Below are positions 4,107 through 31,565 of a stretch of 64,000 bases of DNA, piece after piece (the stretch's first letter is position 1; each line of letters begins with the position of its first letter). The translations under genes were made by a program, and so were the position numbers. Below the pieces are notes generated by a model, which saw only the letters and a program-made list of their open reading frames with translations, was not told where the DNA came from and did no database searches. The DNA comes from Aurantiochytrium sp. KH105 (Eukaryota; Sar; Bigyra; Thraustochytrida; Thraustochytriidae): contig BGKB01000164.1 of the NCBI GenBank assembly GCA_003116975.1, positions 71,518 to 135,517 of the forward strand. The letters run 5' to 3'.

Positions 4107-7100
4107 TCAGAAAAAGCCATTACGGAGTTTTGCTTTTGCGTCTTTTGCGGCTGAAAGTGTTGGAAAGCGCTCACAAGTGCGCTGCACTGCCTCCACAGCG
4201 CCCTGTCTTCGGAGAATAGCTTTGACGGACGAGTTGAAAGCAATACTCCGAAGAGCTCCGCATGCTTTCTCCTGCACGACTTCACTTCTGGAATGAGCGC
4301 GCATGGCCGCGACGATCTCTTTGCCGACCTTGAGCTCTTGCCCGAGGATCACCTTGTTGCGATCGTTGTTACCTGCGAGACTCCAAAGCGCGGCGCATGC
4401 TTTCTCCTGCACGACTTCGCTTCTGGGATGAGCGCGCATGGCCGCGACGATCTCTTTGCCGACCTTGAGCTCTTGCCCGAGGATCACCTTGTTGCGATCA
4501 TTGTTAGCTGCGAGATTCCCAAGCGCGGCGCACGCGTTAATCTGTACGCTTTCGTTTGCGAGATGTGCGCGCATGGCCGCGACAATCTCTTTGCCGACCT
4601 TGAGCTCTTGCCCGAGGATCACCTTGTTGCGATCATTGCCAATTGCGAGAATCCAAAGAGCTCCGCATGCATCCTTCTGCACGACTTCACTTCTGGGATA
4701 TGCGCGCATGGCCGCGACGATCTCTTTGCCGACCTTGAGCTCTTGCCCGAGGATCTCCTTGTTGCGATCATTGTTAACTGCGAGATTCCCAAGCGCGGCG
4801 CACGCGTAAATCTGTACGCTTTCGTTTGCGAGATGTGCGCGCATGGCCGCGACGATCTCTTTGCCGACCTTGAGCTCTTGCCCGAGGATCACACAGTTGC
4901 GATCATTGTTAGCTGCGAGATTCCGAAGAGCTCCGCATGCATCCTCCTGCACGACTTCACTTCTGGGATGAGCGCGCATGGCCGCGACAATCTCTTTGCC
5001 GACCTTGAGCTCTTGCCCGAGGATCACACAGTTGCGATCATTGCCAAATGCGAGATTCGCAAGAGCTCCGCATGCTTCCTTCTGCACGAGTTCACTTCTT
5101 GGATGAGCGCGCATGGCCGCGACGATCTCTGTGCCGACCTTGAGCTCTTGCCCGAGGATCACACGGTTGCGATCGTTGACCGAGAGATTCCAAAGCGCGG
5201 CGCACGCGTTAATCTGTACGCTTTCGTTTGCGAGATGAGCGCGCATGGCCGCGACGATCTCTGTGCCGACCTTGAGCTCTTGCCCGAGGATCACACGGTT
5301 GCGATCGTTGAAGGCGAGATTCCGAAGCGCGGCGCACGCGTTAATCTGTACGCTTTCGTTTGCGAGATGTGCGCGCATGGCCGCGACGATCTCTTGGCCG
5401 ACCTTGAGCTCTTGCCCGAGGATCACCTTGTTGCGACCGTTGGCTGCGAGATTCTGAAGAGCTCCGCATGCTTTCTCCTGCACGACTTCACTTTTGGGAT
5501 GAGTGCGCATGGCCGCGACGATCTCTTTGCCGACCTCGAGCTCTTGCCCGAGGATCACCTTGTTGCGGTCACTGCCATATGTAACAGCTGTAACAAACCC
5601 ACAAGCTGCTGCTTGAAGGTCTTCATGGTCGCGAAACGCTTGAAATATTTCGATTGCAATACTGCCAAGATCATGCTCTTGAATGGCCGCAGCACAAAAC
5701 GAGGTACCTGAAGATCCAGACAGAGCGACCTGGAGTACCCACAAAGCCTCAGCTAAAATTTCGGGATCCGTGCTGTGCTCTAAGATCCTCTTTGTGCTCC
5801 CAATGATACCTCGAGAAAGTGCCTCTGCACGCAATACATCTCCAGCATGAGCATCGCGCTCCTGCTTGAGACTAATCCGAAGTGTCTCCAACGTGCGCAT
5901 GAGATTTCCCGTATCCTCGGACAAGTCGCGGACAAGACCTTGCACAAGCTCAATGCTGGCATCTTCGATACCATTTCTACCGCCGCGACTTCGAGAAAAT
6001 ACTGACACTAGGCCACGGATGAGTCGCGTTGACCGACGAACATTCGTGCGACCTTCGAAAGTTCTGAGAATCTCGGAAGCACGTGGACGGTCTTGCGGAT
6101 TATGCTCCCAGCACTTTTCCATCAAACGCACAACCCACAGACGAACATCAACCTCATCTGAAATGAGGGGTCGCTCTCCGTTCAAGACTCGAGTCTCTAG
6201 ATCTGAGATCGAGCGTACGCTGTGCTCAAACGGCGATTTGCCATGGTAGACTTCCCACATGACAATTCCGAAGGCATAGATGTCCGCGCGCGTCGTCCAT
6301 CGGATAGGCGCTTGCAGAACTTCGGGTGCCTTGTAGGCTGGTGTGCCAACAGATGAGATAGTGTCGGCGATGCTGCTGTTAGCCTCGACCTGTGTGGCGA
6401 GGCCAAAATCTGCTAGCTTGACGAGACCAAGATCTCGGCTGAGCAGAATATTGGCTGGCTTGAGGTCTCGATGGACAATCAAGTTGCCGTGAAGGTACTC
6501 GAGGCCACGAGCGATACCGCGCAGAACGGCTTCCTTTTCGTCGAGAGACAGTGCTAATGTCGCCGCGTCAGTCTCGCTTTCGTACAAGAGGTCGTCGAGC
6601 GACATGTCGCACTTGTCCATGACGAGATGAAAACGGTTCTCAATGATGCAGGTTCCAAGAAGACAGACAATGTTGGCATGCTCGAGTCCATTCCAGCTCG
6701 CGGCTTCACGCATGAGGGCTTGATGCTCATGCAATTGCATGCGACGAGCATTTGGCTTGACGCGTTTGATTGCCGTCTCGACTTCGGAACCATCATCACG
6801 CCGGAAAACGCCAAGGACAACTTGACCGAATTGACCTTCACCGAGAACCTGCAAAGGGGCCTTGATAAAGACTCGATCGCTGCTGAGCGAAGCGGCCTCA
6901 AGCTCTTCTGCTTGAATGAGACTACGTGTAAGACGTTCCATAGCTCCACGCTGACGGCGGGTACCGAGCTGGCCCTCGAGAACAGCGTTAATGTCGATGT
7001 CGGGGTTTTCTTGAAGAAGCGAGATGACCTCTTCAGGGTCGTTGTCAAGTAGTCCACGCTCTTGCAGCAATTCGAGCACACGAAACAAGTCGTTACGTGC

Positions 7101-7529
7101 ATCTTCGTCGTCGTTTGCATCGTCGTCGTTTGCCTCGTCTTCGTGGTCTTCTTGTATCCCCGAACGCTGCTGGCGCAGCTGCAGATCGAGTTGACAGAGT
7201 TGAAGACATGTTTGAAGATGCTGCTCGGCTTCGGTCAGCGCTTGACGAATGGCTCTGGCTTGGAGAAGGAGACGAGCTCTTGCGGCGAGGCCTTGGCGCG
7301 CATTATCGCCAAAGTATGGCTTCAGAAGGTCGAGAAGGACGCGCAGCTCCGCTTCGAGCTGAGATACGTCAATGGCCGCATCGTGCAGCTGCTCGAGGTG
7401 AGAGGCCAAGCGCTCAAGCACGGTCTTGAGATGCGTTGCCTTTCGCTTGCAGGCTACGGCATCCTCCAGCAGGGATGCGCCGTCCCGCGCCAGCTGCAGC
7501 ACAAGCGCCACGCCGGAGATGGCGTCCAT
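4107..7529 (-). CDS. Protein kinase with helical N-terminal domain and C-terminal armadillo repeats
   Basis: Single-exon gene, 1140 aa, ATG at 7529. Residues 1-120 are strongly helical and Leu/Ala-rich, reminiscent of the four-helix bundles in front of MLKL/MCA-type proteins. An acidic Asp/Glu/Asn linker follows (about 125-150). A complete kinase domain lies at about 225-490: Gly loop 'GEGQFG', Lys in 'AIKRVK', catalytic 'HRDLKPAN', 'DFG' and 'APE', most like tyrosine-kinase-like (TKL) Ser/Thr kinases. From about 645 to 1090 are ten repeats of 43-44 aa sharing 'VILGQELKVG' and 'EIVAAMRAH', armadillo-like. Two repeat flavours ('PRSEVVQ' and 'LANESVQ') intermix. Repeats are nearly identical at DNA level, suggesting recent homogenisation. 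A decayed copy of the 5' end faces it at 7770-8385. Role inferred: signalling scaffold kinase; substrate unknown. Confidence 0.88.
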   Translation of the reverse strand: MDAISGVALVLQLARDGASLLEDAVACKRKATHLKTVLERLASHLEQLHDAAIDVSQLEAELRVLLDLLKPYFGDNARQGLAARARLLLQARAIRQALTEAEQHLQTCLQLCQLDLQLRQQRSGIQEDHEDEANDDDANDDEDARNDLFRVLELLQERGLLDNDPEEVISLLQENPDIDINAVLEGQLGTRRQRGAMERLTRSLIQAEELEAASLSSDRVFIKAPLQVLGEGQFGQVVLGVFRRDDGSEVETAIKRVKPNARRMQLHEHQALMREAASWNGLEHANIVCLLGTCIIENRFHLVMDKCDMSLDDLLYESETDAATLALSLDEKEAVLRGIARGLEYLHGNLIVHRDLKPANILLSRDLGLVKLADFGLATQVEANSSIADTISSVGTPAYKAPEVLQAPIRWTTRADIYAFGIVMWEVYHGKSPFEHSVRSISDLETRVLNGERPLISDEVDVRLWVVRLMEKCWEHNPQDRPRASEILRTFEGRTNVRRSTRLIRGLVSVFSRSRGGRNGIEDASIELVQGLVRDLSEDTGNLMRTLETLRISLKQERDAHAGDVLRAEALSRGIIGSTKRILEHSTDPEILAEALWVLQVALSGSSGTSFCAAAIQEHDLGSIAIEIFQAFRDHEDLQAAACGFVTAVTYGSDRNKVILGQELEVGKEIVAAMRTHPKSEVVQEKACGALQNLAANGRNKVILGQELKVGQEIVAAMRAHLANESVQINACAALRNLAFNDRNRVILGQELKVGTEIVAAMRAHLANESVQINACAALWNLSVNDRNRVILGQELKVGTEIVAAMRAHPRSELVQKEACGALANLAFGNDRNCVILGQELKVGKEIVAAMRAHPRSEVVQEDACGALRNLAANNDRNCVILGQELKVGKEIVAAMRAHLANESVQIYACAALGNLAVNNDRNKEILGQELKVGKEIVAAMRAYPRSEVVQKDACGALWILAIGNDRNKVILGQELKVGKEIVAAMRAHLANESVQINACAALGNLAANNDRNKVILGQELKVGKEIVAAMRAHPRSEVVQEKACAALWSLAGNNDRNKVILGQELKVGKEIVAAMRAHSRSEVVQEKACGALRSIAFNSSVKAILRRQGAVEAVQRTCERFPTLSAAKDAKAKLRNGFF
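4225..5600 (-). repeat. Ten tandem coding repeats of about 129-132 bp (armadillo-type)
   Basis: The unit encodes 43-44 aa and recurs ten times in the kinase gene. On the plus strand each unit shows the block 'gagcgcgcatggccgcgac' (or a close variant) and 'accttgagctcttgcccgag' at regular spacing. Because the unit is a multiple of three, the antisense strand also stays open across the array. Confidence 0.95.
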
Positions 7530-7769: not shown

Positions 7770-8385
7770 CATCCGATCGACGCCATCTTCAGCGCGGCGC
7801 TCTTGCTACAGCTGGCGCGGGACGCCGCATCCCTGCTGGAGGATGCAGTGCTTGAGCGCTTGGCCACTCGCCTCGAAAAGGACTTGCACAATGCGAATAT
7901 TGACGCAACTCAACTCTAAGCGGAGCTGCGCGCCCTTCTTGAACTTCCGAAGAAGCCATACTCGCCGAGGCCTCGTCACAAAGGCTTGTCTCCTTTTCCA
8001 GGCCAAAGCCATTCGTCAAGCCCTGACCGATGCCGAGCAGCATCTACAAACATGTCTTCAACTCTGTCAACTCGATCTGCAGCTACGCCAGCTTTCAGGA
8101 ACGCAAAGGAGACGACGATGACGAGGCAAACGACGACGAAGATGCACGTGTTGATCTTTTTCACGTGCTCGAGATGCTGCAAGAGCGTCAAATACTTGAC
8201 AGCGATCTTGAAGAGGTCAATTCGCTCCTTCAAGAAAACCCTGAAATGCGGTTCTCAAGGACACTCGCTCTCAGCGTCCTAGTTCTGTAGCGTCTCACAC
8301 TCAGTCTCCTCTAGGGTGAAGAGCTTGAGGCCGCTTCGCTCAGCAGCGATCGAGCCTACACAAAAAGGCCCCTTTGCATGTCATC
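7770..8385 (+). pseudogene. Truncated, decayed inverted copy of the kinase gene's 5' part
   Basis: Plus-strand DNA matches the first 240 or so codons of the kinase gene at 4107-7529, which runs the other way, so the two copies stand head-to-head about 240 bp apart. The match begins at the codons for 'DAIS' (here 'DAIF', with ATC where the intact gene has its ATG start). It passes through 'QALTDAEQHLQTCLQL', the acidic linker and 'SLLQENP', and fades after 'EELEAASLSSDR' and 'KRPL', just before the kinase Gly loop. It lacks a block of about 20 codons after 'LLEDAV', carries an in-frame TAA near 7917, and changes frame several times, so it cannot encode a working protein. No kinase or armadillo section is present. 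Confidence 0.85.
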
Positions 8386-8725: not shown

Positions 8726-10016
8726 ATGTCGGCGCTCTCGTCCCTGTCCGGGCGACCAATGCCAAGCGTGGAGCCTCGGGACAAGCGGCAGACGGCCAGC
8801 CAAGAGCCTAATTTCCTGCCATGGCTCAAGCTCGAGGGCCACGACGCCGGCATTTCGGGCGTCAAATTCTCGCCCGACGGGAAACTTCTCGCGAGCGCGA
8901 GCGCAGATAAAAGCGTCATCATCTGGGATGTCTCTGATGGCGAAAACCCCGGCAGATTTAGACGCCGCGTGCGCGGACACAAGGCTGGCATTTCGGGGGT
9001 CTGCTGGTCTGCCGACTCGCGCTTCATATGCACTGCGTCCGACGATACCACTGCGCGACTCAGCGACGTGCATACCGGAAAGTGTCTGCGCACCATGGAG
9101 GGCCACCGTGATTATGTATTTAGTGTGGACTTTAGTCCGCAAGCAAATGTGCTCGTCACAGGTAAGTGTTGAGCTGTCGAAGCGAGGGGGCTTTCGCACG
9201 CACGCACGTTTGTTCACGGAAAATGCTAACAGCAACTCAACTCGCGTACGCACCAACGCAGGCTCCTTCGATTCCACCGTACGATTATGGGACGTTCGCC
9301 AGGGCAAGGCTGTGCGCACGATTCCCGCTCACTCTGACCCGGTTACCGCAACAAGCTTTAACCGCGAGGGCACCATGATCGTCTCCAGCTCATACGATGG
9401 TCTCATTCGCATATGGGATGCAGGTAGCGGGCAGTGCTGCAAGACTATTATTGGCGACACCAATCCGGCTGTGTCCTTTGCAACCTTTTCACCGAATGGC
9501 AAGTTTATTCTTGCTGGTACTCTAGATTCAACCTTGCGTCTATGGAACTTTGCAGAGGGCAAGGTCGCCAAAACCTACGAAGGCCACGTGAGTGAGCGCT
9601 ATTGTATGCTCTCCACCTTTGCTGTCACCTCCGGCCATTGGATTGCTTCTGGATCGGAGGATCATCACGTTTATATTTGGGACGTGCAAACGAAAAAGGT
9701 TGCGCAAAAACTTCTTGGCCACGTTGGCGTCGTCCTTGCGGTCGATGCGCATCCCAACCAGGATCTCTTGGCATCAGGCGAAGTTCCGGAAGGCCGTGCC
9801 ACCCATCCCGTGGTACGCGTGTGGCGCCACCAGCCCGGCCAGGATGACCCCGAGGAAGCAGAAGTGAGCGTTTGCGCTCCCACCGAAGCAACAGACACAA
9901 GCAACAAAGACACAGACAAAGGCGAAAAGAAACGAGGTCGCGTTTCTTCTCCGCGCGACGCGAACGAGAACTCCAAAAGTGCCGACATCGAGACTGATAA
10001 GAGCAAAAAGTCCTGA
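8726..10016 (+). CDS. WDR5: WDR5-like WD40 protein, copy 1 (two exons)
   Basis: Coding exons 8726-9161 and 9262-10016, joined across a 100-bp intron with GTAAGT donor and CAG acceptor. The join restores 'LVTGSFDSTVRLW'. The protein is 396 aa and carries about seven WD40 repeats. The later repeats read like WDR5/Swd3: 'YEGHVSERYCM', 'WIASGSEDHHVYIWD' and 'LLGHVGVVLAVDAHP'. WDR5 is the core propeller of COMPASS/MLL histone H3K4 methyltransferase complexes and recognises arginine-containing partner peptides; that role is inferred from family. One repeat has 'RLSD' where Trp is usual before Asp. A Lys/Glu/Asp-rich tail of about 65 aa follows the propeller, absent from animal WDR5. A second, intronless WDR5-like gene follows in the same direction. 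Confidence 0.88.
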
Positions 10017-10492: not shown

Positions 10493-11671
10493 ATGGGCAA
10501 GGATGTCAAGCGCATGCCGCGGTTGCAGCTGGGCCTGAGCCACGTGCTGCGCGGCCACCGCGGCAGCGTGTCGTGCGTCAAGTTCTCTCCGGACGGAGAC
10601 CTGCTTGCAACGGCCTCGGTCGACGGCCTGGTCATTCTCTGGGACGGCGTCTCCGGCGCGTACGTGCGCACGCTCGAGGGCCACCAGGGCGGCGTATCCA
10701 CCGTCGCGTGGTCGCCCGACGGCGCGCTGCTCTGCTCGGCAAGCGATGACAGGACTGTGAGGCTCTGGGAGGCAGCCACCGGCCGCATCGTGCGCACCTT
10801 GGTGGGCCACCACAACATCGTCTTCGCCGTGGACTACAGCCCGACGGGCGACCTCATTGCAACAGGCTCCTTTGACTGCACGATACGCATTTGGAATGCT
10901 CAAACAGGTCGCTGCATTCGTACAATTCGTGGCCACACGGACCCGGTCACCGCGGTAAACTTTAATCGTGACGGCTCGCTGCTCGTCTCCGGCGGCTTTG
11001 ACGGTCTTGTCCGCATTTGGGACACCAACAGCGGCCAATGTCACCGATCCATCCTGCAAAACCATAACCCGCCCGTCAGTAGTGCCACCTTTTCGCCGAA
11101 TGGAAAATTCGTTCTTGTTGGCACCTTTGGCGGTACCTTGCAGCTCTGGAACTTTGCGCAAACAAAGGTACTGAAAAGGTACCGTGGCCACCTGCACGAG
11201 CGATTTTGTCTTCAGGCCGGGTTTGCGGTTCATCAAGGAGCAGCAGCCATCATGAGTGGGTCCGAAGATGGCGTCTGCTATCTCTGGGACCTGCAAACCA
11301 AGCGAGTGACCTTGCGCCTCGAGGGTCACAGCGGGCCCGTTGTCGCAATCGACTCCCACCCCAAGCTCCCCATCGTGGTCTCTGCAGAGCTCACGTCCAC
11401 GACCGTCTCTTATTCGGAGAACGAGGCTGGATCTGAAAAATCTCAGAACGCACAAGATGATGAGATGGGAACAATCCGCCTATGGCAGCCCCCTAAACAG
11501 CAGCAACAAGTTGAAGGAGACGAGAATCGGCTTGCCGATGCCGCGTCGAGCGTGCCAGTCGTCATCCGGGCGCCTGCTCACACGCCGTCCAGCGCACGAG
11601 ATGAGAACGGGTCGTTTCAGGACTCGCCGTCGCCACTCGTGCTTCAGCCTGTGCCAATCGCGTCCGATTGA
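10493..11671 (+). CDS. WDR5: WDR5-like WD40 protein, copy 2 (intronless)
   Basis: Single exon of 392 aa from the ATG at 10493. WD40 repeats fill about residues 15-310, including 'LRGHRGSVSCVKFSPDG', 'SASDDRTVRLWE', 'GSFDCTIRIWN' and 'YRGHLHERFCL'. It aligns repeat for repeat with copy 1 just upstream, so the two are tandem paralogues. It lacks the intron of copy 1. The tail (about 315-392) is Gln/Ser/Pro-rich and differs from the charged tail of copy 1, so partners may differ. Expected role by family: histone-methyltransferase scaffold. Divergence between the copies suggests an old duplication. Some repeats lack the final Trp-Asp pair, as is common. Confidence 0.82.
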   Translation: MGKDVKRMPRLQLGLSHVLRGHRGSVSCVKFSPDGDLLATASVDGLVILWDGVSGAYVRTLEGHQGGVSTVAWSPDGALLCSASDDRTVRLWEAATGRIVRTLVGHHNIVFAVDYSPTGDLIATGSFDCTIRIWNAQTGRCIRTIRGHTDPVTAVNFNRDGSLLVSGGFDGLVRIWDTNSGQCHRSILQNHNPPVSSATFSPNGKFVLVGTFGGTLQLWNFAQTKVLKRYRGHLHERFCLQAGFAVHQGAAAIMSGSEDGVCYLWDLQTKRVTLRLEGHSGPVVAIDSHPKLPIVVSAELTSTTVSYSENEAGSEKSQNAQDDEMGTIRLWQPPKQQQQVEGDENRLADAASSVPVVIRAPAHTPSSARDENGSFQDSPSPLVLQPVPIASD

Positions 11672-11981: not shown

Positions 11982-14114
11982 CTAAGTCTTGACCGGGGTT
12001 GGCGCGATGCGACGCTTCTTCGGTTTCTTGGCGTCCTCGCTGCTGTCCTTCTTCTTCTCGATACTATCTGATGCCTGAGCTGATGCCGGGGACGCAGTGG
12101 GACTGGGCGAGACCGACTTTACTTGTATGGGAGTGATTCGTCGCCGTTGCAGCGTTTTGGTCACACTCGCTGTACATGAAGCCTTTGGAGTGTTGCCAGC
12201 GCCCTCGCTGGCGGCGGAGGGAGTGGTAGCCGCCGTCGGGCTCGAGCTCGAGCTTGAGGGTTTCTTGAAATAAGAATCGATCGGAATCGGCACTATTCGG
12301 CGTTTCTTCGGCGCTGGGGCCGCCGTTGCATCGCCAGCTTTTTCCGTGGACGATCGTTTTTCGTTTGTATCTTTGTTTGCTGCGGCTCCCCTCGCGTCCT
12401 CAGCGCCTTGCTTACTTCCATTATCATTGTCATCATCATCGTCATCGTCACCATCGTCATTGTCACTTCCGCTCGAAGACACCAGTGAAACGAGTGCTTC
12501 AGGCGCGCCCGCAGTCTCTACCCCCGTCTTTGTCGTTGCCTTTGATTCCGCTGCTGCGCCGAGGGTGTCCTTCGCATCGACAGTCTTCTCAGACGCCTGC
12601 TGAGCTTGAGCATCAGCGAGTCGTTGTGCAAGTATCTGATCCACGGAGACAACCTTGGGCTCGAAACCGGGTCGAGCCACAGCCGGAACTTTGGTGCCCG
12701 TCAGACGCGTTCCAATCTCGCCCTCTGCTGTGCTAATCAGAGAACAGTAACCATCTCGCGAAGATACGACGAGCACACGGCCATCGCCAGACCAAGAAAC
12801 GTCCGTGAGCTCCGCAAAGTGAAGCTGCTCGGCAGCCGCAATCGCATAGCGGTGCTGCGTGTCGTAGATGAAAATGCTGTCGAGGGTGACCACAGCAAAG
12901 ACCATCCTGTAAGGCACATTGAGCCACGGCTTGACACCCGGACGCAGAGCATAAAACGCGGGCGAAAAACGAACCGCTACAGACGCCTTTCCGGCGCCGG
13001 GAAAGTGCATAATGGGTGTCTGCCAGCCTCCGCGCATAAAGGCAAAGCTCGTGGGCTGGCCAGCTCGAATGCGCCCTGTCGGAGTAAGCAAAAGCACTCC
13101 ATCCGGAGACCAGGCGAGTCTGCGCACCATGGTGGGCACTGTGTCTGCCTCGAACATGATTCGCTTGCGGAGCTTTGAGGTCGAATCGCGAGAAGATTCC
13201 GCGTTGTCGGCCTTGGGGCTTGAAGACGGCGGCGGCGATGATGCGGACTTTTCCGGGAACTGCCGCGTGCTCAACTCGTGCGCACATACAAAACGCGGCG
13301 CAAACTCCTTTGCATCCGTAGCACCCGCGCTTTCAGCCGCTGCAGCCTTGACCTCCCCCTGGTCCGTTTCATTCTCGTTTGTGCCTGCCTTGAGCTTGGC
13401 CTTTTTCTTGCGCGTGCGCTTTGGGAGGCGCCGTTTGAAGACCTTGACGGTGCGGTCTGCGCTGCAGGTCGTGAAAAAGTTGCGAAACGGGTCCCAGGCA
13501 ACTCCTTGCACAAAGTGCCCGTGTTCATGAAAGGTTTGCAACAGTTTGCCGTCCCGGCCATCCCAAACAAGGACCGCGCCATCCACCGAGCCAGATGCAA
13601 GCAGACGCGAGTCACTTGCCCATGCCAGATCAGACACGTCGCTTGTATGTCCGCGCAGAAACTTGCGCTTTACGTCCTTCTCGTCCCGTACGCGTTCCCA
13701 TCCATGCGTGCCCGGCCCCGCGCCGTCTTCGGCAGCATTGGTCGCGCCTGGCCGGACAGTCACGAGGGCATCGTCTGGATCCGTCTTTGGGGCTTCACCC
13801 ACGTCCATGAGGGCCCTGGGCTCCTCGGGTCGTAACACGCAGACAGTGCCGTCGTCGCTGCAGGTGGCAAGGAGCGCGCCGTTGGGCGAGAACCTCGCGG
13901 CGTTGACGCTCTTGTGATGCGCCTGAAATCCGCATACAAAGGTAAAGGGGCTCTCGCCCTCCTTGGTTTCGTCAAAGCTCCAGAACTTGATCTCGTTATC
14001 GCTGCCACCGGTCACCATGACCGCCAGCTTTGGGTGCACGTCTACCGCGTACACGGGCCCATTCTTGCCGTGTTCGTCCACGTGCAGCGCAATCTCGGGC
14101 GTGGCGACCCTCAT
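11982..14114 (-). CDS. CHAF1B: Chromatin assembly factor 1, p60 subunit (CAF-1 p60 / FAS2 / Cac2)
   Basis: Single exon, 710 aa. The first ATG in frame is at 14114 ('MRVATPEIALHVD'). The open frame continues upstream but without another ATG. N-terminal WD40 repeats read like CAF-1 p60: 'VYAVDVHPK', 'GGSDNEIKFW', 'HHKSVNAARFSPNG', 'LLASGSVDGAVLVWD' and 'HGHFVQGVAWDP'. CAF-1 deposits H3-H4 on replicating DNA with PCNA. The C-terminal third is low-complexity (Asp/Ser/Lys/Ala) and carries three basic 'RRI' motifs ('KKRRIVPIPI', 'RRRITPIQV', 'KKRRIAPTPV'). These resemble the B-domain through which HIRA and CAF-1 p60 bind the histone chaperone ASF1. Long insertions lie between blades. It faces the WDR5-like pair. 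Confidence 0.88.
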   Translation of the reverse strand: MRVATPEIALHVDEHGKNGPVYAVDVHPKLAVMVTGGSDNEIKFWSFDETKEGESPFTFVCGFQAHHKSVNAARFSPNGALLATCSDDGTVCVLRPEEPRALMDVGEAPKTDPDDALVTVRPGATNAAEDGAGPGTHGWERVRDEKDVKRKFLRGHTSDVSDLAWASDSRLLASGSVDGAVLVWDGRDGKLLQTFHEHGHFVQGVAWDPFRNFFTTCSADRTVKVFKRRLPKRTRKKKAKLKAGTNENETDQGEVKAAAAESAGATDAKEFAPRFVCAHELSTRQFPEKSASSPPPSSSPKADNAESSRDSTSKLRKRIMFEADTVPTMVRRLAWSPDGVLLLTPTGRIRAGQPTSFAFMRGGWQTPIMHFPGAGKASVAVRFSPAFYALRPGVKPWLNVPYRMVFAVVTLDSIFIYDTQHRYAIAAAEQLHFAELTDVSWSGDGRVLVVSSRDGYCSLISTAEGEIGTRLTGTKVPAVARPGFEPKVVSVDQILAQRLADAQAQQASEKTVDAKDTLGAAAESKATTKTGVETAGAPEALVSLVSSSGSDNDDGDDDDDDDNDNGSKQGAEDARGAAANKDTNEKRSSTEKAGDATAAPAPKKRRIVPIPIDSYFKKPSSSSSSPTAATTPSAASEGAGNTPKASCTASVTKTLQRRRITPIQVKSVSPSPTASPASAQASDSIEKKKDSSEDAKKPKKRRIAPTPVKT

Positions 14115-17606: not shown

Positions 17607-20600
17607 CTACTCTTCCGCCTCGGAACGCTTCTGTGGAGACGTCGGTTCATTTTCGTCTCGTTGCGCTTTGTCCTGCTGCTCAACATGTTGATGTGGTTCC
17701 TGCATTGGCATCATCGTTGCATGAGGTGGCATTGCGTGGAGGTAATATGGATGCTGAGGCGGCATCGGCATAAAAGGCGGAGGAGGGTTCGGATATCCTG
17801 GCATCATGTAGGGTGTCGAATAGTACATTTCATGGCCCGAAGGCCCAGGCATTGGGCCCATTGGCACATGCATCATCGGCTGCGGTGGCGGAGGATGAGG
17901 AGGATGAAACGAAGGAGCAAATGGCATCATCCCATTTTGCATGTAGGCTTGCATGTACGGAGGCCAAAAGTTGCCTGGAGGCCCCGCGTGTTGGCCGACC
18001 TGCACAAACTGAGGCCCTGGCTGCGACTGTTCTGGAGTCACGAAATTTTGAAGAGGAGGAGATTGACCAACCTCCGGATCAGTACCTGCTGGTCCAGAAG
18101 CCTTGCTCTCGCCCTGGCCCACTGCTGGCGCCCCAGAAAGACGCTCGGAGGCCATCGTTTGGCCCTGGGCCCAAGCGAGCATTTCGTCATGGAGCTGCAC
18201 GGGTGTTACATGACGCCGCGGGCACGCATCTCCCTCGGGACAATTGCCCTGTAAAAAGAGTCGGCAAATGTCGACAACTGGTGGGCTGTTTCCTTTTGCA
18301 CCTGCTGCCGCCTCTGACGTCCCGGTGGGCTCGTGAGCTTTTTCCGAATTGGACAAAGCTGAAACACCACTCTTTTGCGTAGGCGCAGACGTAGGCGTAG
18401 GCGCAGGCGCAAGAGCATGCTCGGATGCTTCTTCAGTACTGGATGCAGGCGGCGTGGAGCTTTCCCGAGCCTCCCACGCATCAAGCGCAGCCGCCGTAGG
18501 CTTATCCACTCCGTGTTGCGAAACATGCACAGCAGCCTTATCCACTCCATTTTGCGAGACATCCACAGCAGCCTTGTCCACTACGCTTTGCGAAACATCC
18601 ACTGCAGCCTTGTCCACTCCGCTTTGCGACACCGCTTCTAGCTTCTTCGACTTGCTCGACTTCTTCTTGTTCTTCTTCTTCCTATTGTGAGTCTTCTTGT
18701 CGTGCTTCGTTGATGTCTCTGCAGCTGCTGGCGACACCGCTCCAGCCTCGGAACTGTTGGAGTCCGGCGGGGCTTGCGTGACTGCGTCGCCTCTCGTGCC
18801 TTCTTCCGTTGAGCACGAAAACTGTGAAGTGGAGCCGTTCGCTTGAGCATCTCCACTTTCTCGGTCGGCCAGCGAGGTCTTTTGACTCGATTTTGATGCA
18901 AGCTCTGATTTGGGACTCTGCGCTACATCAGACGACTTCTGCTTGGATACATCGTCTTTCGAGCGACCCTCCTCAGTTAATGCAGCAGCGCAGGAAGAAT
19001 GCAACAGCAAACTCTCCTTTTCCACATCTCCAACGACTTGAGGAGTCGCTCGATCAGACACTCTCTTCGTTGACTTTTCACTCCCTCGGCGAGATTCCAT
19101 TTTCTCTTTTGCCTGAGTTTGAAATTGTCCATCGGCAGACGCATCGGTATGCTGCGTCTTGATACGCCGATTCCCTTTTCTCCGAGCGGACACAGTTGTC
19201 CAGCTCTCTAGGCTTTCGTCTACTGACAGCTCATCCTTCTCCAAAGAAGTCTGTGTGGAAGGCGGAGAATCGTCGAGATGTACATCCTGCTCCGAAGTCT
19301 TCATGTCATGCAACACAGAAGAAGTCCCAGGTTCTTCTTCTTCTTCTTCTTTGTCTTTGCTATTTCCAATTCCGTTCTCAGTCATGCCCAAAGTATCATT
19401 AAGAGAATAAGAACGGGTCTCCTGCCGCGCACCTTCCTGTTCGCTTACACTTTTGCCGCCACGCGTTTTCCGTTTCGACTTGGCCTTGCGTGTCTTCGCA
19501 CCTCCTCCGCCTCCAGCCCCGAGAGCAAGACTTGCCGGTTCCACCTGATTCAGCAATGTAGCACGATGCTTGGCATTCACGGCACTCTGGTGAGCAATCT
19601 CGTCAACGCGATTGACAAGGAGTTGCGCGATAGCAGCAGTGAAGAATTGAAATCGCATCGTGACATTTCGTCGCAGGGCACGCTCGACTGCGCCCAAATT
19701 TTCCAGAGAGGCCTCATAATCCCGTTTCAAAGCCCGTAGACGGTGCTGCGCCGAGATGATGAGTTCACGAACGTGGCAGAGGTCGTCTTCACAGGTGAAA
19801 TTTTGCTGCACCTGCTGGCTCAAGGCAGCGTCGAGATGCACAGTATTATTCACAAGGACAAGCTGATCCTTGAATATAGCCTGTACCTTGGTTGTGACCT
19901 CCTCGTCATCCATGCGTGCGTCGGAAAGAGGGGCGGTTGCTGCAGACTCCTTGCCTGCAACCTGCACTTGCCGCACAGCCACCAACACTTGCGCCGCTGC
20001 AAGCACAAGGTCAAGAATCGCCTCGCGCTCAGAAAGGCCCAAATCGAGTGACATTCGAGGTGTCGGGTAGAAAACCCCAGCAGTCTTTGCAATACGTCGA
20101 GCTTCCTGTTGACCAAGTTCCAAACCTGGCCTTCCCGCGAAGAACTGTTCCTGCTTCCATGCAATTGTTTGCACTTCATGCATTTCCAGAGTCTCACGAA
20201 GCTTGGACGTAATTTCTTGCCGCCAGTCGTCCCATCTTTCCGTGGTCCCCGGGTCCCCCTGCTTGTCCACGCTAGCTTCTGCAATTTCACCCTCCTCGCC
20301 CTCTTTTTCCCTCTCCATGGACATCTTTCCATCTCCACCCTTGCGTGGAGTGGCGAGCAGACCCTCGTACGGATTCACGGCGGCAGCTACGCAAATCTCT
20401 TCTGATACTCGGCTCAGCGGCCCTAAAAAATCGGCACAAAACGCTAGCAGCGCGCCTTCTTTGACTGATGCCTCGTGCAAAGCTGATGCTTCGGCGCGCG
20501 CATCTTCACGAGCAGCTCGGCCCGCCGAGGTCGCGAGCGACATGACCGCGCTCAGTACACCGGCACCCCCCGCAAGCGGTGATCCGGAAGACGGCTCAGC

Positions 20601-23600
20601 GCCCGTGTGGTCTATCATGACACTCGCCCCAGTCACCTGCTTTGTCGGTGCAGAAGGCTTTGAACAGGCCTCGAGAGAGGCTTGCAATCGCATCGACAGC
20701 ATCGGGCTGTCCATAGCCACCTCAAGCAAAGATCTCGGGATTTGTTCCACCTTGCTCATCGTTTCACAGAGCGTGTTTACGCAGCTAGCAAAGTGCGAGT
20801 GCGCGCTGAGATCCTTCGTTGACGTCTGCGCCGGAGGGTCGTGAGACCGAGAATGACCACGGCGACCCTGTACATGGCGTTTTGCCAGATCAGACGTCTT
20901 GCTGTGCATGGCGTCGATCTCCTCGAGGTAGGTAAGGATGTTTTGAAGATTGAACAAACGCTCGCCCTTGGAAAAGACATCGTCGCGACGAGCCGTGTAC
21001 TGCTGCGCCAAGTCCTTGCAGCACTGCACCTCGTGCTGTAATTCGTCAGCAAGAGCAGGGCCTGTTTGCGACAGTCGCAGAATACGCTCAAACAAAGAAT
21101 GAATGCTGTCATTCGTTCGTTCGGTTCCTGTTTCAGACCGCGTCTCCCCGCTGCACCGGTTACTCTTGACGTCGCCGCCACAGGCATTGCACTGGAGAGC
21201 GAGCGGTCTCTTACCTCGGCGACCTTGCGATGGCTGCGCGCATGCCACAACGTTGCGTGTCTCTTGCCCGCTCAAGGCAGATTCCGAAGTTGACGGAATG
21301 CTCTGAACCTGGCCATCTTCCTTTGCTTTGTTTTTGGTGGTTGCCTCGCTGACGAATGTTGAAGCCTTACCGTTTGCAGCCTTACCGTTTGCAGCTGCGC
21401 CCCGTTTCTTCCGCCTGGACGGGCGCTGTTTGATTGTTATGTCTGGGGCAAAATTTGCAACATAGCAGGACAAACGCCTTTTCCCATCCGGAGAGAGCGT
21501 AGACTTTAATTTGAGTTCAGGCAGCCACGCTGTTATACGGCCATTGCTGCTGCCGCTGCCGCTGCTGCCGCCGCCACCACCGCACGAAAAATCCAAGGCG
21601 CAAGTGCTTGCGCAGCCTTGACCACATTCACAACACAGAGGCGCTTCGCCCAAGTAAATGGGAACAAGACCGACATTAGCAAAACATGCAGACGCGCAGC
21701 GCTTCGAAACAACCCAGCCATCAGAAAATACGAGCGAGCCAGGCGCTTCTTCACCAGCAGCGTTCGCCTTTTGCCGCCACTCACGAGCGTGAACGAAGTA
21801 GGTTTCCTCGATGAGGAGACCATTGCTCGAAGATGAAGAAGCGCCGAACATGGGATAACCTTGCGCCATGTCCGCGAGCACACATAAACTTGGCGGTAGC
21901 GCGCAATTTGGAATGATGCGCTCGTCCAAAGCGCCGACAGTTTGAACTGGCGGTTCCGCAACATCAATTTCGTCAAGCTCGCTCAACGCCGCAGCAGCAA
22001 AGGCAGGCGATGCCTGTAAGGCACGCATTTTGAGCTTGGTCTCGGCAAAAGCTGCAGCGAGGCGCTGCCAGCGGCGACCTGCATCGGACTTGATGAGCAC
22101 CTCGAGTTTGCTCGCGCTCGCCCCGCGACGAAGCGGCCTCTCAAAGTGACCAGCTGTGGGAGACGCGATTTTTCCATAGTCCAAACGAGAGTAGACTTCG
22201 AGCGTGTCGGCCAAGGCACGATGAAAGGTATCGTTCTCGGCTGCTGCGTCATGGTCGGTGTGCTCATGCGCAAGCGCGAACAACTTGTACGATGCAGGCA
22301 CGCGGGGCGATTCGCCGTCAATGTAAATTTCTCGCGCGACTTGAAGAACATCCATGGGTCTGCCTGGAATTTCACCTCGTAAATGTTGTGTAATAGCTTG
22401 CAAATCTTGCAAAGAAATGAGCCGAATCCGCTCCCGCTGGTCGCTATTCTGCAGCGCTTCCCATGCTTCGGCTAACTTCGCAACACGCGTGTTTCGAGCA
22501 GGTTCACGAGCGCACTCGCATGTCTTGTTGCTAGGGACACTTGACTCGCGCGTACTTTGCAAAGTCGAAGAGCTTGGTACGCAGGATGGCACGAGATTCC
22601 AAGGCCCATATCCCGTCTCAACATCGATGACTTGGCTATATGCAAAAGCCGCTTCGATGTCGTCCTCCAAGCCGCCATTGGTTGTCGTTGTGTTCTCGTC
22701 ATTGGAAGCAGCCGACGCAGTTGCCCTGGCCATCGTGTCTTGGCCGCGAGTGAGCAGAGCGTCTACGTGGGGTTCGCTGTGGCCGTGCGCAGCCGTCACC
22801 AGCCACGGTGGGGCAGCGGTCCAATTCCGATTAAGATTTAGATCTTCGCAGGAGCTCAGGGCTTCTACGTTAAAGAACGGTGCAAGCGCCTCATCCATCT
22901 CGGCAATTAAAGTCCCGTCGTCCACAGTTGTTTGTTTTGCGATCTCGATACGGAGACGCAACAAAACAACAATTTGCGTTGGGGCCGCAGCCCGAAGACA
23001 GGAGCACACGAGACGCTGCGCGAGCGCGGCAACCCCGCCGCGGCGCAAAGAGAGCGCTGTGTCGCCCTCGCCCAAGAGCGCAAAAATTACACGCTGCACG
23101 TTTGCCACATACTGCTCATAGGTTTTTACCAATGCATCGGGACTTATGATGGCAAGTAATGACCGCATGCAAACTTGTAAAACTCGGGCACTCAACGCGC
23201 TGCGCACACAACGATTGAGGCCAGTCAGACTATTTCGCGCTCCACTTTGATATGCCTCGACATCAATCGCCTCCACGAGCGAGCCAACAAGGCGTCGGCA
23301 GTCCTCCAAGGACCGCCGATCGCGCAGGAGGGCACATGTGTCAAGGGTTAGACCTGGTTTCTTTCCCCCCACCCGGCTTGGATCGAGCGCCACATAAACG
23401 AGAAGAGCATCACACATGATCCAGAGCAAGGTGTCCTCGTCGAGGCCAGATGAGAGCGGTGACGCGTCATAGAGCTTAGACTTGGCAGGTTGCGCCCCGC
23501 CGGCCTCTGGACCTTCGCTCTCGTCCAGTATCCTGAGTCCAAAGTCATTCTGATGCACCGCACCTTTGACAACAAAATTACGGGCCATTTGATCGCTAAG

Positions 23601-23981
23601 AGCAGCTTCGAAGCGCTTGAAAAGGTCTTGCGAGGCGATTGTTTTGTCGAGCGTGCGAGCCTGCTGCAATGCCCTCCCGCCGCTCTTTAGTTGCGCGGCA
23701 TTCCCCGTATGCCTTCCCAAACCAACCAGTGCGCAGCCTTTGCAAAGATGAGCGAGGGCGAGCTTTCCGTCGCGCTGGAGGGCTTGCGTGGAATCTTTCA
23801 GCGCTTCGTCCATGCGCCCCAGGAGCACGTTCGCCTTGGCGCGGCTCGCAAAGAAGGGCGCCCGCTTCGGGTCTCTGGCGATCAGTCGCGTCATGATCTC
23901 CACGGCCTTCGCATACTCGGTCTCTTCCACCGCTGCGCGAAAGGCCTGCACCTCTTCCAGCACTGCACGCGTGGCCTCCAT
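17607..23981 (-). CDS. Very large TPR and CCCH zinc-finger protein
   Basis: Single exon, 2124 aa from the ATG at 23981 that opens a tetratricopeptide-like region. The same frame also has an ATG at 24321, adding 113 Arg/Glu-rich residues that look like translated 5' UTR. TPR-like helices cover about 1-100 ('YAKAVEIMTRL', 'FFASRAKANVLLGRMDEAL'). A Cys-rich segment lies near 750-790. Several Lys/Ser low-complexity linkers follow. Near 1780-1830 a 13-aa unit ('VDKAAVDVSQ') recurs about four times. A CCCH finger of spacing C-x7-C-x5-C-x3-H ('CRLFLQGNCPEGDACPRRH') sits at about 1910-1930, so RNA binding is likely. The tail is Pro/Met/His/Gln-rich. Overall family not recognised; an RNA-binding scaffold is an inference. 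Confidence 0.8.
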   Translation of the reverse strand: MEATRAVLEEVQAFRAAVEETEYAKAVEIMTRLIARDPKRAPFFASRAKANVLLGRMDEALKDSTQALQRDGKLALAHLCKGCALVGLGRHTGNAAQLKSGGRALQQARTLDKTIASQDLFKRFEAALSDQMARNFVVKGAVHQNDFGLRILDESEGPEAGGAQPAKSKLYDASPLSSGLDEDTLLWIMCDALLVYVALDPSRVGGKKPGLTLDTCALLRDRRSLEDCRRLVGSLVEAIDVEAYQSGARNSLTGLNRCVRSALSARVLQVCMRSLLAIISPDALVKTYEQYVANVQRVIFALLGEGDTALSLRRGGVAALAQRLVCSCLRAAAPTQIVVLLRLRIEIAKQTTVDDGTLIAEMDEALAPFFNVEALSSCEDLNLNRNWTAAPPWLVTAAHGHSEPHVDALLTRGQDTMARATASAASNDENTTTTNGGLEDDIEAAFAYSQVIDVETGYGPWNLVPSCVPSSSTLQSTRESSVPSNKTCECAREPARNTRVAKLAEAWEALQNSDQRERIRLISLQDLQAITQHLRGEIPGRPMDVLQVAREIYIDGESPRVPASYKLFALAHEHTDHDAAAENDTFHRALADTLEVYSRLDYGKIASPTAGHFERPLRRGASASKLEVLIKSDAGRRWQRLAAAFAETKLKMRALQASPAFAAAALSELDEIDVAEPPVQTVGALDERIIPNCALPPSLCVLADMAQGYPMFGASSSSSNGLLIEETYFVHAREWRQKANAAGEEAPGSLVFSDGWVVSKRCASACFANVGLVPIYLGEAPLCCECGQGCASTCALDFSCGGGGGSSGSGSSNGRITAWLPELKLKSTLSPDGKRRLSCYVANFAPDITIKQRPSRRKKRGAAANGKAANGKASTFVSEATTKNKAKEDGQVQSIPSTSESALSGQETRNVVACAQPSQGRRGKRPLALQCNACGGDVKSNRCSGETRSETGTERTNDSIHSLFERILRLSQTGPALADELQHEVQCCKDLAQQYTARRDDVFSKGERLFNLQNILTYLEEIDAMHSKTSDLAKRHVQGRRGHSRSHDPPAQTSTKDLSAHSHFASCVNTLCETMSKVEQIPRSLLEVAMDSPMLSMRLQASLEACSKPSAPTKQVTGASVMIDHTGAEPSSGSPLAGGAGVLSAVMSLATSAGRAAREDARAEASALHEASVKEGALLAFCADFLGPLSRVSEEICVAAAVNPYEGLLATPRKGGDGKMSMEREKEGEEGEIAEASVDKQGDPGTTERWDDWRQEITSKLRETLEMHEVQTIAWKQEQFFAGRPGLELGQQEARRIAKTAGVFYPTPRMSLDLGLSEREAILDLVLAAAQVLVAVRQVQVAGKESAATAPLSDARMDDEEVTTKVQAIFKDQLVLVNNTVHLDAALSQQVQQNFTCEDDLCHVRELIISAQHRLRALKRDYEASLENLGAVERALRRNVTMRFQFFTAAIAQLLVNRVDEIAHQSAVNAKHRATLLNQVEPASLALGAGGGGGAKTRKAKSKRKTRGGKSVSEQEGARQETRSYSLNDTLGMTENGIGNSKDKEEEEEEPGTSSVLHDMKTSEQDVHLDDSPPSTQTSLEKDELSVDESLESWTTVSARRKGNRRIKTQHTDASADGQFQTQAKEKMESRRGSEKSTKRVSDRATPQVVGDVEKESLLLHSSCAAALTEEGRSKDDVSKQKSSDVAQSPKSELASKSSQKTSLADRESGDAQANGSTSQFSCSTEEGTRGDAVTQAPPDSNSSEAGAVSPAAAETSTKHDKKTHNRKKKNKKKSSKSKKLEAVSQSGVDKAAVDVSQSVVDKAAVDVSQNGVDKAAVHVSQHGVDKPTAAALDAWEARESSTPPASSTEEASEHALAPAPTPTSAPTQKSGVSALSNSEKAHEPTGTSEAAAGAKGNSPPVVDICRLFLQGNCPEGDACPRRHVTPVQLHDEMLAWAQGQTMASERLSGAPAVGQGESKASGPAGTDPEVGQSPPLQNFVTPEQSQPGPQFVQVGQHAGPPGNFWPPYMQAYMQNGMMPFAPSFHPPHPPPPQPMMHVPMGPMPGPSGHEMYYSTPYMMPGYPNPPPPFMPMPPQHPYYLHAMPPHATMMPMQEPHQHVEQQDKAQRDENEPTSPQKRSEAEE
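18490..18640 (-). repeat. 39-bp coding tandem repeat (about four copies)
   Basis: Inside the TPR/CCCH gene, the block 'gccttgtccact' plus 'gaaacatccac'-type sequence recurs every 39 bp, encoding variants of 'VDKAAVDVSQ'. Seen directly; copies differ at several bases. Confidence 0.85.
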
Positions 23982-24877
23982 GGCTGCGCCCCTCCGCCTG
24001 CGCTCCTCGTCTCCGTCCTCGTCCTCTGTCCTTCGTCGTCTTCGACCTTCTCCGTCTTCTTCTGGGTCTGCCTGCTCGGCTCGCTTGGCCTGCCACCAGC
24101 TTTCTTGAACAACGAGAAGAGGTGGGCGACGACACCACGACGAGCCAGAACAGAAGCCCTTCTTACTACGATCCAGCTTCGCCTGACCTGACGGAGCTTT
24201 GCGCGATGCGCTGCACTGCGAAATGCGCGAGGCACCGATGACACCGAAATTTGCGCCATGAAGTTGGCTCAGCAAGCAGCTTCGCGAGCCCAGGTGGAAA
24301 GAACCTTGCCGGTCGAGCATCTGCGTTTGCAACGGGACACGGATGATGAAGAGAACAAAAAATCAGCACGTTTCCTTGCTTCGAAGATTCAATTTCGATT
24401 CATTGACGTGGCTAAATTAATCATGATTGAGTGACAACTGTCGCGCACAAAGAGAGCCAAGAAATAGGCCTACAGAGATAGATGTAAATCAACCGTTTGT
24501 CATCACAAATGGCCAAGATCATTCGCTTTCCCAGGTATTTGGTTGACAGAGAATGCGAGACTGTGCAACACATTGAAATCTCTTTTGCTTTCTGTACATC
24601 GCAAAACCAGGAGGCCATCTTTTTCTTCTTGTTGTGGTACAAATTACAAACTATTTCCAGCCGTGCCCGGCGGCCAAAATCGAGAGACCCATACTCACAG
24701 TTTTGCACAATCACATCGCAGTTCGAATATGTTGAAGCCCGCCAATGACTCGCCTTTTCGTTGCTGCGTGCAACGCGCTTGCGACGACATAAGAGCCGCT
24801 CGCGACTGCGACCACGACCGAGACGGTGGGGCCCGTCGAAGCGGTCTATCCGTGCCCGGTTGGCGAAGGGGCCTAAG
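23982..24877. promoter_or_regulatory. Divergent intergenic region (TPR/CCCH gene and ankyrin gene)
   Basis: About 900 bp between two divergent starts, so both promoters should lie here. The stretch at about 24340-24720 is clearly AT-richer than its surroundings. No specific factor site recognised. Part may be coding if the TPR/CCCH gene starts at 24321. Confidence 0.5.
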
Positions 24878-27842: not shown

Positions 27843-29897
27843 TCATGCCATGTTGAGATGGTGAAGTGCAAGCAGATCATCTCCCACCTTGACGAGCTCC
27901 TGCATCCCTTCGACCTTGGGAGATGCAGGCGAAAGTGGTGGCAATCTATCGCGAAGGCCATCTTCGAGGAGCAAGTCAGCTTCTGTTTCGACCTGCAGCG
28001 CAGAAGATTGTAGCGCCGCAGGCCCTGATCGTTTTGCATTGTGCGACGAGGATACAGGCATGGTGAAGGCAAGTCCTAGTCCTCCTGAACTTTTTCCTCC
28101 TCCTCCTACTGCTGCTGCCGCCGCCGCCGCTACGACTGCCCCCCCTGAAAAGGACTCGGGCGATTTAGAGACGACAGCCGGCATGATTGTATGATTGGTA
28201 ATAAAGGGGTGGTCCTCGAGCTCATGAGTTCGGAGGCGCGAAGCGGGATTGCGCACAAGGAGCGCGAGAAGGAAGTCCTTGCACTCCGCGGATCGAGTCG
28301 CTTGCTCTTCCATGGCGTACACGCACGACTTGAAGTTGATATGGTGCGTGATGGCATGCGGATACACTTCGCTGCTTCGACGCATCCTCGGATGGTGATG
28401 GAGAACTTCGTCCTTGGACGCGAGCAGGTTCGGCGCCGAGTTTGTCCCGACGAGGCCAGAGCATGCAACGCTTGAGACGACATTATCGTGAGCGTTATAG
28501 CTGCGTTTGTGCGAATGGCCTCCAAGGACATCCTCGCCTTCTTGCTCTTCGCCTTCCTTTTCCTCGACACTTTGGCCCGTTTCGGCACGAGGACGCGTGG
28601 TCATCAATTGTTGACCGAAAATAGCCTTGACAGCGCCAACACAGCGGAGCAGCTCGCGATCGAATTGCTGGGCGTCATGCAGGTGCTCGTACGCGTATGC
28701 AGGCATCCAAACCTCCGCGAAGCGGCCATGTCCTAGGAGCATCTCGAGCAGCACGCATCCGAGGCTCCAGACATCGAGCGTCTCGCTTGAATATGCTGGA
28801 TCGACAAGCATCTCGGGTGCAAAAAAACCAGGGGTTCCACAAAAATCGTCGAGCGTCATGTGCTTGGCGTGGTACGTGCTGAGCCCAAAGTCGACGAGCT
28901 TGACATGGCCTCGAGCGTCGATGAGAATATTCTCGGGCTTGATGTCGCGATGCACGACCTCGTGCGTGAACAAGTATCGGACGGCGGAGCAAAGCTGCTT
29001 AAAGACGCTCTGCACGAATTTCTCCTCGGCAGGACCGGGACGTACGCGATAATGCTCGAAAAGGTCCATGCCGCCCTTTTCCTGGACGAGATAGAGGTAC
29101 TTTTCAGTGTGACAGACGTCGACAAGCCGGGCGATGCACGGGTGGTCAAGATCTCGTAGGAGGCGAATTTCGTTGTTGACGCGGCCCATGTTGCGAACGT
29201 CGGTGACTCTGTCCTTGATGATGCGCTTCACGGCGAGATCCTCGGGAAGAAAACCGCTCTTGGCCAGAAGGAGCGCGGGGCCGTCCCGCACAGCTTTGAC
29301 CGTGGCAAATTGCCCTTCGCCAAGCACGCGCCCGGCGAGCCAGTCGCCGACCTCTTCGTCGGTCTCGCGGAGATCGGTCTGCATGGCGGGGATGCTTTCG
29401 AAGCCGGCAATGTGGTTTGGGATGTAGTCCCAAAGCACCTGGCGCAGCTTGAGCTTGTGCGCATCGTACTTTTCCCGGAGAGCCACGAATTCTTCAAAGA
29501 GCTCATTTTGTTGACGGTGAAAGGTCTTGATAGATTTAAGAGCCACCTTGAGGTTGTGGTCGAGCTCCTGGGCCTCACGCGTTTTTCTCGCGAGAGCGTT
29601 CTCGAGGTCTCGAGCATTGCGGAGTCTCTCCTCGTTGCCCTTGCTGTACGACATGTCCCCACTATCAATGGAGAAGGATCGTCTCGACCTGCTCTTGGAT
29701 GCAGACGAGTGCGACTCCAGAGGGGCATCGAGTTGCAGATGCAGCAGCACGACTGATTCCTTGTTGCTGGCGCCCATGACCGAGCTGCCGGCTACAATTT
29801 CGCATTCGTGGCCTGCATTGCGGAGGACCTGCGCAAGAAGGACGTCGGCCTGGAGTTCATTGTCTTTGTGGTTGAGCGTCCTGATGACAACAACCAT
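27843..29897 (-). CDS. Serine/threonine protein kinase (CAMK/AGC-like)
   Basis: Single exon, 684 aa, ATG at 29897. An N-terminal segment (about 1-185) includes a short beta-rich start and a coiled coil (about 85-150). The kinase domain starts near 187: 'GEGQFATVK', Lys in 'LAVKRI', 'HRDIKPENI' near 312, 'DFG' near 336 and 'GTPGFFAPE' near 360. Motifs are complete, so it should be active. A roughly 100-residue acidic and Ser/His-rich insert ('EEKEGEEQEGEDVL') splits the C-lobe before the last helices ('RNPASRLRTHELEDHPF'). The tail has an Ala/Gly run. The 'HRDIKPEN' motif and 'HPF' end favour a CAMK-type kinase, but no calmodulin site or EF hand is evident. Pathway unknown. Confidence 0.85.
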   Translation of the reverse strand: MVVVIRTLNHKDNELQADVLLAQVLRNAGHECEIVAGSSVMGASNKESVVLLHLQLDAPLESHSSASKSRSRRSFSIDSGDMSYSKGNEERLRNARDLENALARKTREAQELDHNLKVALKSIKTFHRQQNELFEEFVALREKYDAHKLKLRQVLWDYIPNHIAGFESIPAMQTDLRETDEEVGDWLAGRVLGEGQFATVKAVRDGPALLLAKSGFLPEDLAVKRIIKDRVTDVRNMGRVNNEIRLLRDLDHPCIARLVDVCHTEKYLYLVQEKGGMDLFEHYRVRPGPAEEKFVQSVFKQLCSAVRYLFTHEVVHRDIKPENILIDARGHVKLVDFGLSTYHAKHMTLDDFCGTPGFFAPEMLVDPAYSSETLDVWSLGCVLLEMLLGHGRFAEVWMPAYAYEHLHDAQQFDRELLRCVGAVKAIFGQQLMTTRPRAETGQSVEEKEGEEQEGEDVLGGHSHKRSYNAHDNVVSSVACSGLVGTNSAPNLLASKDEVLHHHPRMRRSSEVYPHAITHHINFKSCVYAMEEQATRSAECKDFLLALLVRNPASRLRTHELEDHPFITNHTIMPAVVSKSPESFSGGAVVAAAAAAAVGGGGKSSGGLGLAFTMPVSSSHNAKRSGPAALQSSALQVETEADLLLEDGLRDRLPPLSPASPKVEGMQELVKVGDDLLALHHLNMA

Positions 29898-31549: not shown

Positions 31550-31565
31550 GATAAGATAAGATAAG
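31550..31565 (+). promoter_or_regulatory. Triple GATAAG box upstream of the desaturase
   Basis: Three overlapping 'gataag' units about 500 bp before the delta-4 desaturase start. GATA-type zinc-finger factors bind GATAAG in fungi and animals; use here is a guess. Confidence 0.3.

Follow-up and report, generated by a model that had tools for sequence, protein, structure and literature searches.

What kind of protein carries a kinase and ten mutually similar armadillo (ARM) repeats in a single reading frame, and what might account for where those repeats vary? The question is raised by a gene in a 64,000-nucleotide stretch of the thraustochytrid Aurantiochytrium sp. KH105 (assembly GCA_003116975.1, contig BGKB01000164.1, positions 71,518 to 135,517 of the forward strand), hereafter the window, in whose coordinates all positions are given. 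A tentative answer, which we place just short of an even chance, is that the gene encodes a TKL-type kinase, cytosolic and catalytically competent, in which the ARM solenoid at the C-terminus would be a ligand-binding arm evolving in concert. Behind this answer stands the observation that differences among the repeats concentrate at positions that we take to line the ligand groove; where the differences lie is shown, selection on them is not. The parts of the gene, and a broken copy of its beginning, are as follows.

4107..7529, minus strand: whole open reading frame, 1140 amino acids, ATG start, no intron needed (list of open reading frames, translation)
7155..7529, minus strand: N-terminal domain, residues 1-125, leucine-rich, probably helical by eye, fold unproven (composition, Pfam, search of the Protein Data Bank, PDB)
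6852..7154, minus strand: acidic stretch and linker to the kinase, residues 126-226 (composition, 28 D+E and 10 K+R)
6060..6851, minus strand: TKL-like protein kinase, residues 227-490 (Pfam, PDB matches, motifs)
5574..6059, minus strand: region between kinase and array, residues 491-652, with what by eye look like degenerate ARM-type helices (inspection)
4233..5573, minus strand: ten ARM repeats in the order A B B A A B A B A A, residues 653-1099 (Tandem Repeats Finder, Pfam, unit alignment)
4110..4232, minus strand: basic C-terminal end, residues 1100-1140, 9 K+R versus 3 D+E (composition)
7776..8374, plus strand: inverted, frame-broken copy of codons 1-226 (tblastn, DNA self-comparison)

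A TKL-like kinase in one frame with an ARM array

Upstream of the ATG, 300 nt of sequence contain ten in-frame stops; the nearest is 27 codons away, and no other ATG intervenes. An earlier reading of the letters alone (the sequence-only reading) had proposed the order N-terminal region, acidic linker, TKL-like kinase and ARM array. This order is borne out by the single 1140-codon frame, by Pfam and by composition, and the linker is indeed acidic.

Residues 227-489 match the Pfam family Pkinase (E 3.6e-49), and none of the kinase motifs is missing (AIK at 253, HRDLKP at 353, DFG at 374 and APE at 401); with this set complete, the kinase is predicted to be active. When the protein was compared with PDB sequences, two solved chains led the best 60 of 2605 matches: LRRK2, with a whole-chain E of 8.5e-37 to which two matched stretches contribute, and RIPK1 (E 2.6e-31), matched by the kinase domain alone. 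We take both to be TKL kinases, and the domain is, by these comparisons, TKL-like as proposed. Roc-COR, LRR, WD40 and death domains, which are features of LRRK2 or RIPK1, are all absent from the Pfam list for the protein.

The array matches the Pfam family Arm (PF00514, E 2.7e-27, in 8 stretches) and, in a further likeness to LRRK2, the ARM_LRRK2 profile (E 9.1e-37). Tandem Repeats Finder delimits it at 4247-5571 with a period of 135, 9.9 copies and a score of 1663. Its units start at residues 653, 697, 741, 785, 830, 875, 920, 965, 1010 and 1055, units 1-3 being 44 and units 4-10 being 45 amino acids long. Beyond these domains, Pfam gave no significant match for residues 135-226 and no match for residues 498-652, and an NCBIfam search of the protein returned kinase families, all under their curated cut-offs, and otherwise weak unrelated matches. 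The plus strand is also open over nearly the whole array, in an antisense frame (4293-5711) that runs to 472 codons and is probably a by-product of the repeated codons.

Two intermixed flavours of repeat

Unit alignment and Pfam agree with the proposal of ten ARM repeats in two intermixed flavours. Flavour A (mostly PRSEVVQ..ACGAL) comprises units 1, 4, 5, 7, 9 and 10, with unit 9 reading ACAAL, and flavour B (LANESVQI.ACAAL) comprises units 2, 3, 6 and 8. Gapped columns aside, any two A units are 85-90% identical in DNA and any two B units 91-96%, and pairs of one A and one B unit are 77-87% identical. Since units thus share only 77-96% of their DNA, the claim that they are nearly identical at that level was too strong. 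At the protein level, identities run from 66 to 93% overall (75-89% within A, 86-93% within B, 66-80% between), and all ten units are distinct from one another.

Conservation is unevenly spread along the unit. A single codon is used by all ten units at 20 of 45 columns, 16 of which fall within columns 1-25, and this first part is almost uniform, with proportions of silent (pS) and replacement (pN) differences of 0.104 and 0.057. Columns 26-45 vary (pS 0.324, pN 0.235); it is in columns 26-35 that the two flavours differ consistently, across all units, at the nucleotide level.

The remainder of the window offers a control. Outside the kinase-ARM gene, Tandem Repeats Finder reported no period above 45 nt. 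A direct-repeat comparison covering the ANK gene, the TPR gene and two WD40 genes out of three, which can miss repeats under about 65% alike, found no direct DNA repeat of at least 60 nt in any of the four. The third WD40 gene (8928-10016), which lay outside that comparison, has only matches of 40-42 nt and 60-76% in and around it.

Variation sits at putative groove positions

In importin-alpha, ARM helix 3 carries a conserved Trp and Asn that correspond to W33 and N37 in the numbering of designed ARM proteins, and designed ARM libraries randomise positions 4, 30, 33, 36, 37 and 40, a set for which we found no confirmation in print. If W33 and N37 are aligned with columns 37 and 41, the ligand-groove positions would presumably be columns 5, 34, 37, 40, 41 and 44. 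Across the ten units these columns hold 3, 5, 2, 5, 3 and 5 different amino acids, 23 in sum, and columns 34, 40 and 44, with five each, show the greatest variety in the array. The six columns are enriched for amino-acid differences over all units (column permutation P 1e-5), an enrichment that persists within flavour A (P 1e-5) and within flavour B (P 0.001), and as a comb they rank 1 among 45 circular shifts. At column 40 the codons CAG, CGG, GCG, GGG and TGG encode five residues with zero silent changes. The siting of the variation is recognition-like, in line with the sequence-only reading.

Signs of exchange between units

Units would also appear to have exchanged sequence. In the ARM register, 106 of 190 two-state site pairs among the 10 units are in four-gamete conflict, and 80 of 190 pairs are in conflict when the register is shifted by 25 codons (9 units). 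Single units point the same way. Unit 9 is a mosaic, A-type at the flavour sites with a B-type codon at column 37 and B-type third bases at columns 28 and 38. Units 3 (B) and 4 (A) have column 5 (CGT) and column 16 (ACA) in common, and units 5 (A) and 6 (B) likewise share TGT at column 5. Recurrent mutation can explain some of the conflicts, and exchange between units is probably the simpler reading. The exchange previously suggested finds support in these conflicts; that the process is ongoing is not confirmed.

Recognition surface or drifting scaffold

The alternative that survives best is an ordinary signalling kinase of the TKL group, its array a scaffold of the oomycete kind. A young tandem expansion would then let the exposed, less-constrained groove residues drift, without any system of recognition. 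We regard it as quite possible, if clearly below an even chance. Several results count in its favour or otherwise weigh against a recognition surface. The groove alignment was fixed after the variability table had been inspected, and columns 16, 26, 27, 30 and 33, outside the six, also hold three amino acids each. The ratio of replacement to silent changes is 17:6 in the six columns and 24:13 elsewhere (Fisher P 0.57), 15:5 versus 13:9 within A (P 0.34) and 7:3 versus 4:5 within B (P 0.37), and codon positions 1 and 2 versus 3 do not separate the six columns from the rest (P 0.38). Because these ratios do not differ between the two sets, relaxed constraint would fit as well, and we rejected the Fisher comparison as proof of positive selection on the groove columns. 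Over the whole array, pN (0.135) is below pS (0.202). Similarity between adjacent units, finally, does not as a whole exceed that between the rest (mean 0.852; P 0.59 by permutation of unit order), although one neighbouring pair, units 2 and 3 of the shifted register, reaches 97% identity; neighbour-biased exchange was rejected on this test.

Drift does not account for everything, however. From a young expansion alone one would not expect the differences to fall on groove columns with other, presumably exposed positions uniform, and the mosaic units require exchange or recurrent mutation.

The N-terminus and its inverted copy

Does the N-terminus add an output of its own? Residues 1-125 are 22% Leu and contain 15 K+R and 15 D+E, so they bear no net positive charge. 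Pfam searches of residues 1-120 and 25-125 at E up to 10 listed no bundle family, a negative with no positive control behind it and one in which HMMER filters discard most matches above about 0.1. Models for MLKL and RPW8 are also held in Pfam. HeLo-type Pfam profiles are named in PMC9815663, which terms HeLo, MLKL and RPW8 homologous (here and below, statements from cited papers are limited to the portions of their text available to us). A phmmer search of residues 1-135 against the PDB, at E up to 10, listed 12 sequences, none significant and none of them MLKL. An MLKL-like N-terminus, as the sequence-only reading had it, is accordingly not established.

Fourth in that list is the N-terminal domain of the Arabidopsis resistance protein At5g66900 (7l7v), which we take to be NRG1. 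The match is non-significant (E 0.56) and is outscored by three eIF3M sequences, yet its alignment is collinear and gap-free (residues 28-123 against 31-126) and closes on CQ-(L/I)-DLQL. Full shuffles never reach its score; of shuffles that preserve residue classes, 0.27% of 3000 attain the local score and 0.32% of 5000 the gap-free one, in a test that used the segment picked by the search itself and in which the best class-preserving shuffle scored 72 against the observed 63. The MLKL_NTD of the plant kinase Pm13 superimposes on animal MLKL, Arabidopsis MLKL and the CC-R domain of Nicotiana NRG1 (PMC10951266). This superposition, together with the homology of HeLo, MLKL and RPW8, makes the match a lead rather than membership, and as a lead it may keep the idea of a bundle alive.

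A death executioner of the MLKL/HeLo type, in which the N-terminal bundle would permeabilise membranes once an ARM-controlled kinase module is activated, strikes us as unlikely. It would draw on the match just described and on the order of parts in Pm13, a 476-aa protein in which an MLKL_NTD, a brace and a kinase with catalytic residues follow one another (PMC10951266); both proteins have an N-terminal domain, a linker and a kinase with catalytic residues. The available text describes no ARM array in Pm13, whereas the protein studied here has one, and its N-terminus is without a significant sequence match. Each weakness of the lead (the E value, the higher eIF3M sequences, the higher-scoring shuffle, the search-picked segment) counts against an executioner, as do the want of a Pfam bundle family at E up to 10 and of net positive charge.

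The N-terminal part of the gene has a second, inverted occurrence in the window. The copy lies head-to-head with the gene, about 245 bases away, and is 82-89% identical to codons 1-226 in five gap-free blocks totalling 487 bases. In the copy, ATC replaces the start codon, and there are in-frame stops and frame shifts; on these grounds we rejected it as a working second gene. Of its 73 differences from the gene, 33 are at third positions (chi-square P 0.09), and the silent share, 0.38, compares with an expectation of about 0.31 if a transition bias is assumed (P 0.16), which suggests change close to neutral. Similarity stops at codon 226 by tblastn, or at codon 220 in the gap-free DNA block, at the start of the kinase domain. 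Either the duplication took in just the N-terminal part, as one unit, or the copy was truncated at the kinase boundary.

Comparison with known systems

In the kinome of Phytophthora infestans, most of the 13 members of the TKL Oomycete Subfamily 1 have protein-interaction domains; PITG_10645 carries ten C-terminal ARM domains, and other members carry ankyrin or TPR arrays (PMC3019232). By description, then, PITG_10645 and the gene described here are both TKL kinases with ten C-terminal ARM domains. The sequence-only reading had treated the ARM array as an addition to such a kinase; with this oomycete precedent in print, the layout is not new. The available text of PMC3019232 makes no mention, for PITG_10645, of an N-terminal helical domain, homogenisation at the DNA level or variation in the groove, all of which are seen or proposed here.

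A second comparison is with fungal NLRs. In their internally conserved ANK and TPR repeats, variable, positively selected positions lie on the concave face, with one exception (PMC4986451), and in the WD repeats of het-d and het-e four selected residues lie at the interaction surface (PMC1805685). The array described here shares with them internally conserved repeats, variable positions on a binding face (here a putative one) and exchange between repeats, and by analogy it resembles the same logic without a NOD domain. The differences are plain: fungal NLRs join WD, ANK or TPR repeats to a NOD, in contrast to ARM repeats and a kinase, and neither NACHT nor NB-ARC is among the 12 Pfam families listed for our protein at E up to 10. 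Moreover, conserved repeats are defined in PMC4986451 as more than 85% identical over at least 100 aa, and the 66-93% identity of our units, from one strain, is largely below this except within flavour B.

In the available text of the searched literature, homogenised repeats combined with groove variation were not found described for an ARM kinase. A search for a thraustochytrid armadillo kinase also returned no paper, a weak negative, as a similar oomycete search missed PMC3019232 despite its Armadillo domains. Searches for relatives of the whole protein in viral and prokaryotic contig collections, and of residues 1-135 in the viral collection, found none; single-protein queries of this kind reach close relatives only, and the result says little.

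Neighbouring genes

Within the window, tblastn with the protein at E up to 0.01 matched only the inverted copy and a second protein kinase (27843-29897, minus strand; E 4.9e-54). At E 0.001 its Pfam list contains no family of repeats, and its alignment with the ARM kinase, 222 columns long, shows 31% identity.

Two tandem WD40 proteins are encoded at 8928-10016 and 10493-11671 on the plus strand, each with a WDR5 profile as best match (E 1.7e-77 and 8.3e-98); the coding start of the first seems by eye to lie upstream, near 8726, with an interruption. A CAF1B/HIR1-type WD40 protein with an acidic stretch in its tail follows at 11982-14114 on the minus strand (E 7.3e-95). An open frame of 2237 codons at 17607-24320 (minus strand) has no Pfam match at E 0.001. 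Cytochrome b5 is fused to a fatty acid desaturase at 32059-33624 (plus strand), and an antisense frame of 541 codons (31501-33126) that overlaps this fusion has no Pfam match at E 0.001. Scans of the window for tRNAs and Rfam families gave no match, and a promoter and terminator scan, whose model is bacterial, gave nothing useful.

Discussion

An assembly error or spurious frame is hardly conceivable: the antisense frame open across the array does mean that openness alone is weak evidence there, but the kinase and ARM matches are far above Pfam cut-offs and the ten units are all distinct. If the array is a binding arm evolving in concert, its mechanism might run as follows. Unequal exchange or gene conversion would copy one unit onto another, and this copying would keep the backbone uniform and shuffle the groove residues. 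The array would bind a protein or peptide ligand in its groove, and binding would turn the kinase on, by release or clustering. The N-terminus may oligomerise or act as a second output.

On this account the gene product looks like a receptor or adaptor kinase, and recognition (of self, symbiont or pathogen) is a plausible role and the use that best fits such a design. A role in defence or cell death is unproven, and for defence remains an inference, as the sequence-only reading itself had said. A more elaborate version, in which a non-NLR receptor of a protist uses a kinase in place of the NOD switch, a concerted, variable-groove ARM sensor and a HeLo-like bundle as its death output, is improbable in our view. 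If true, it would mean that the het-d/het-e principle had been reinvented on a RIPK/MLKL-like chassis.

Should recognition prove the wrong reading, the gene would still illustrate clearly how an ARM array evolves in concert. If the array does evolve as a recognition surface, the gene could be tested directly as a candidate receptor for allorecognition or immunity in a lineage of protists, and it would indicate that the repeat-shuffling principle of fungal NLRs can work on a kinase.

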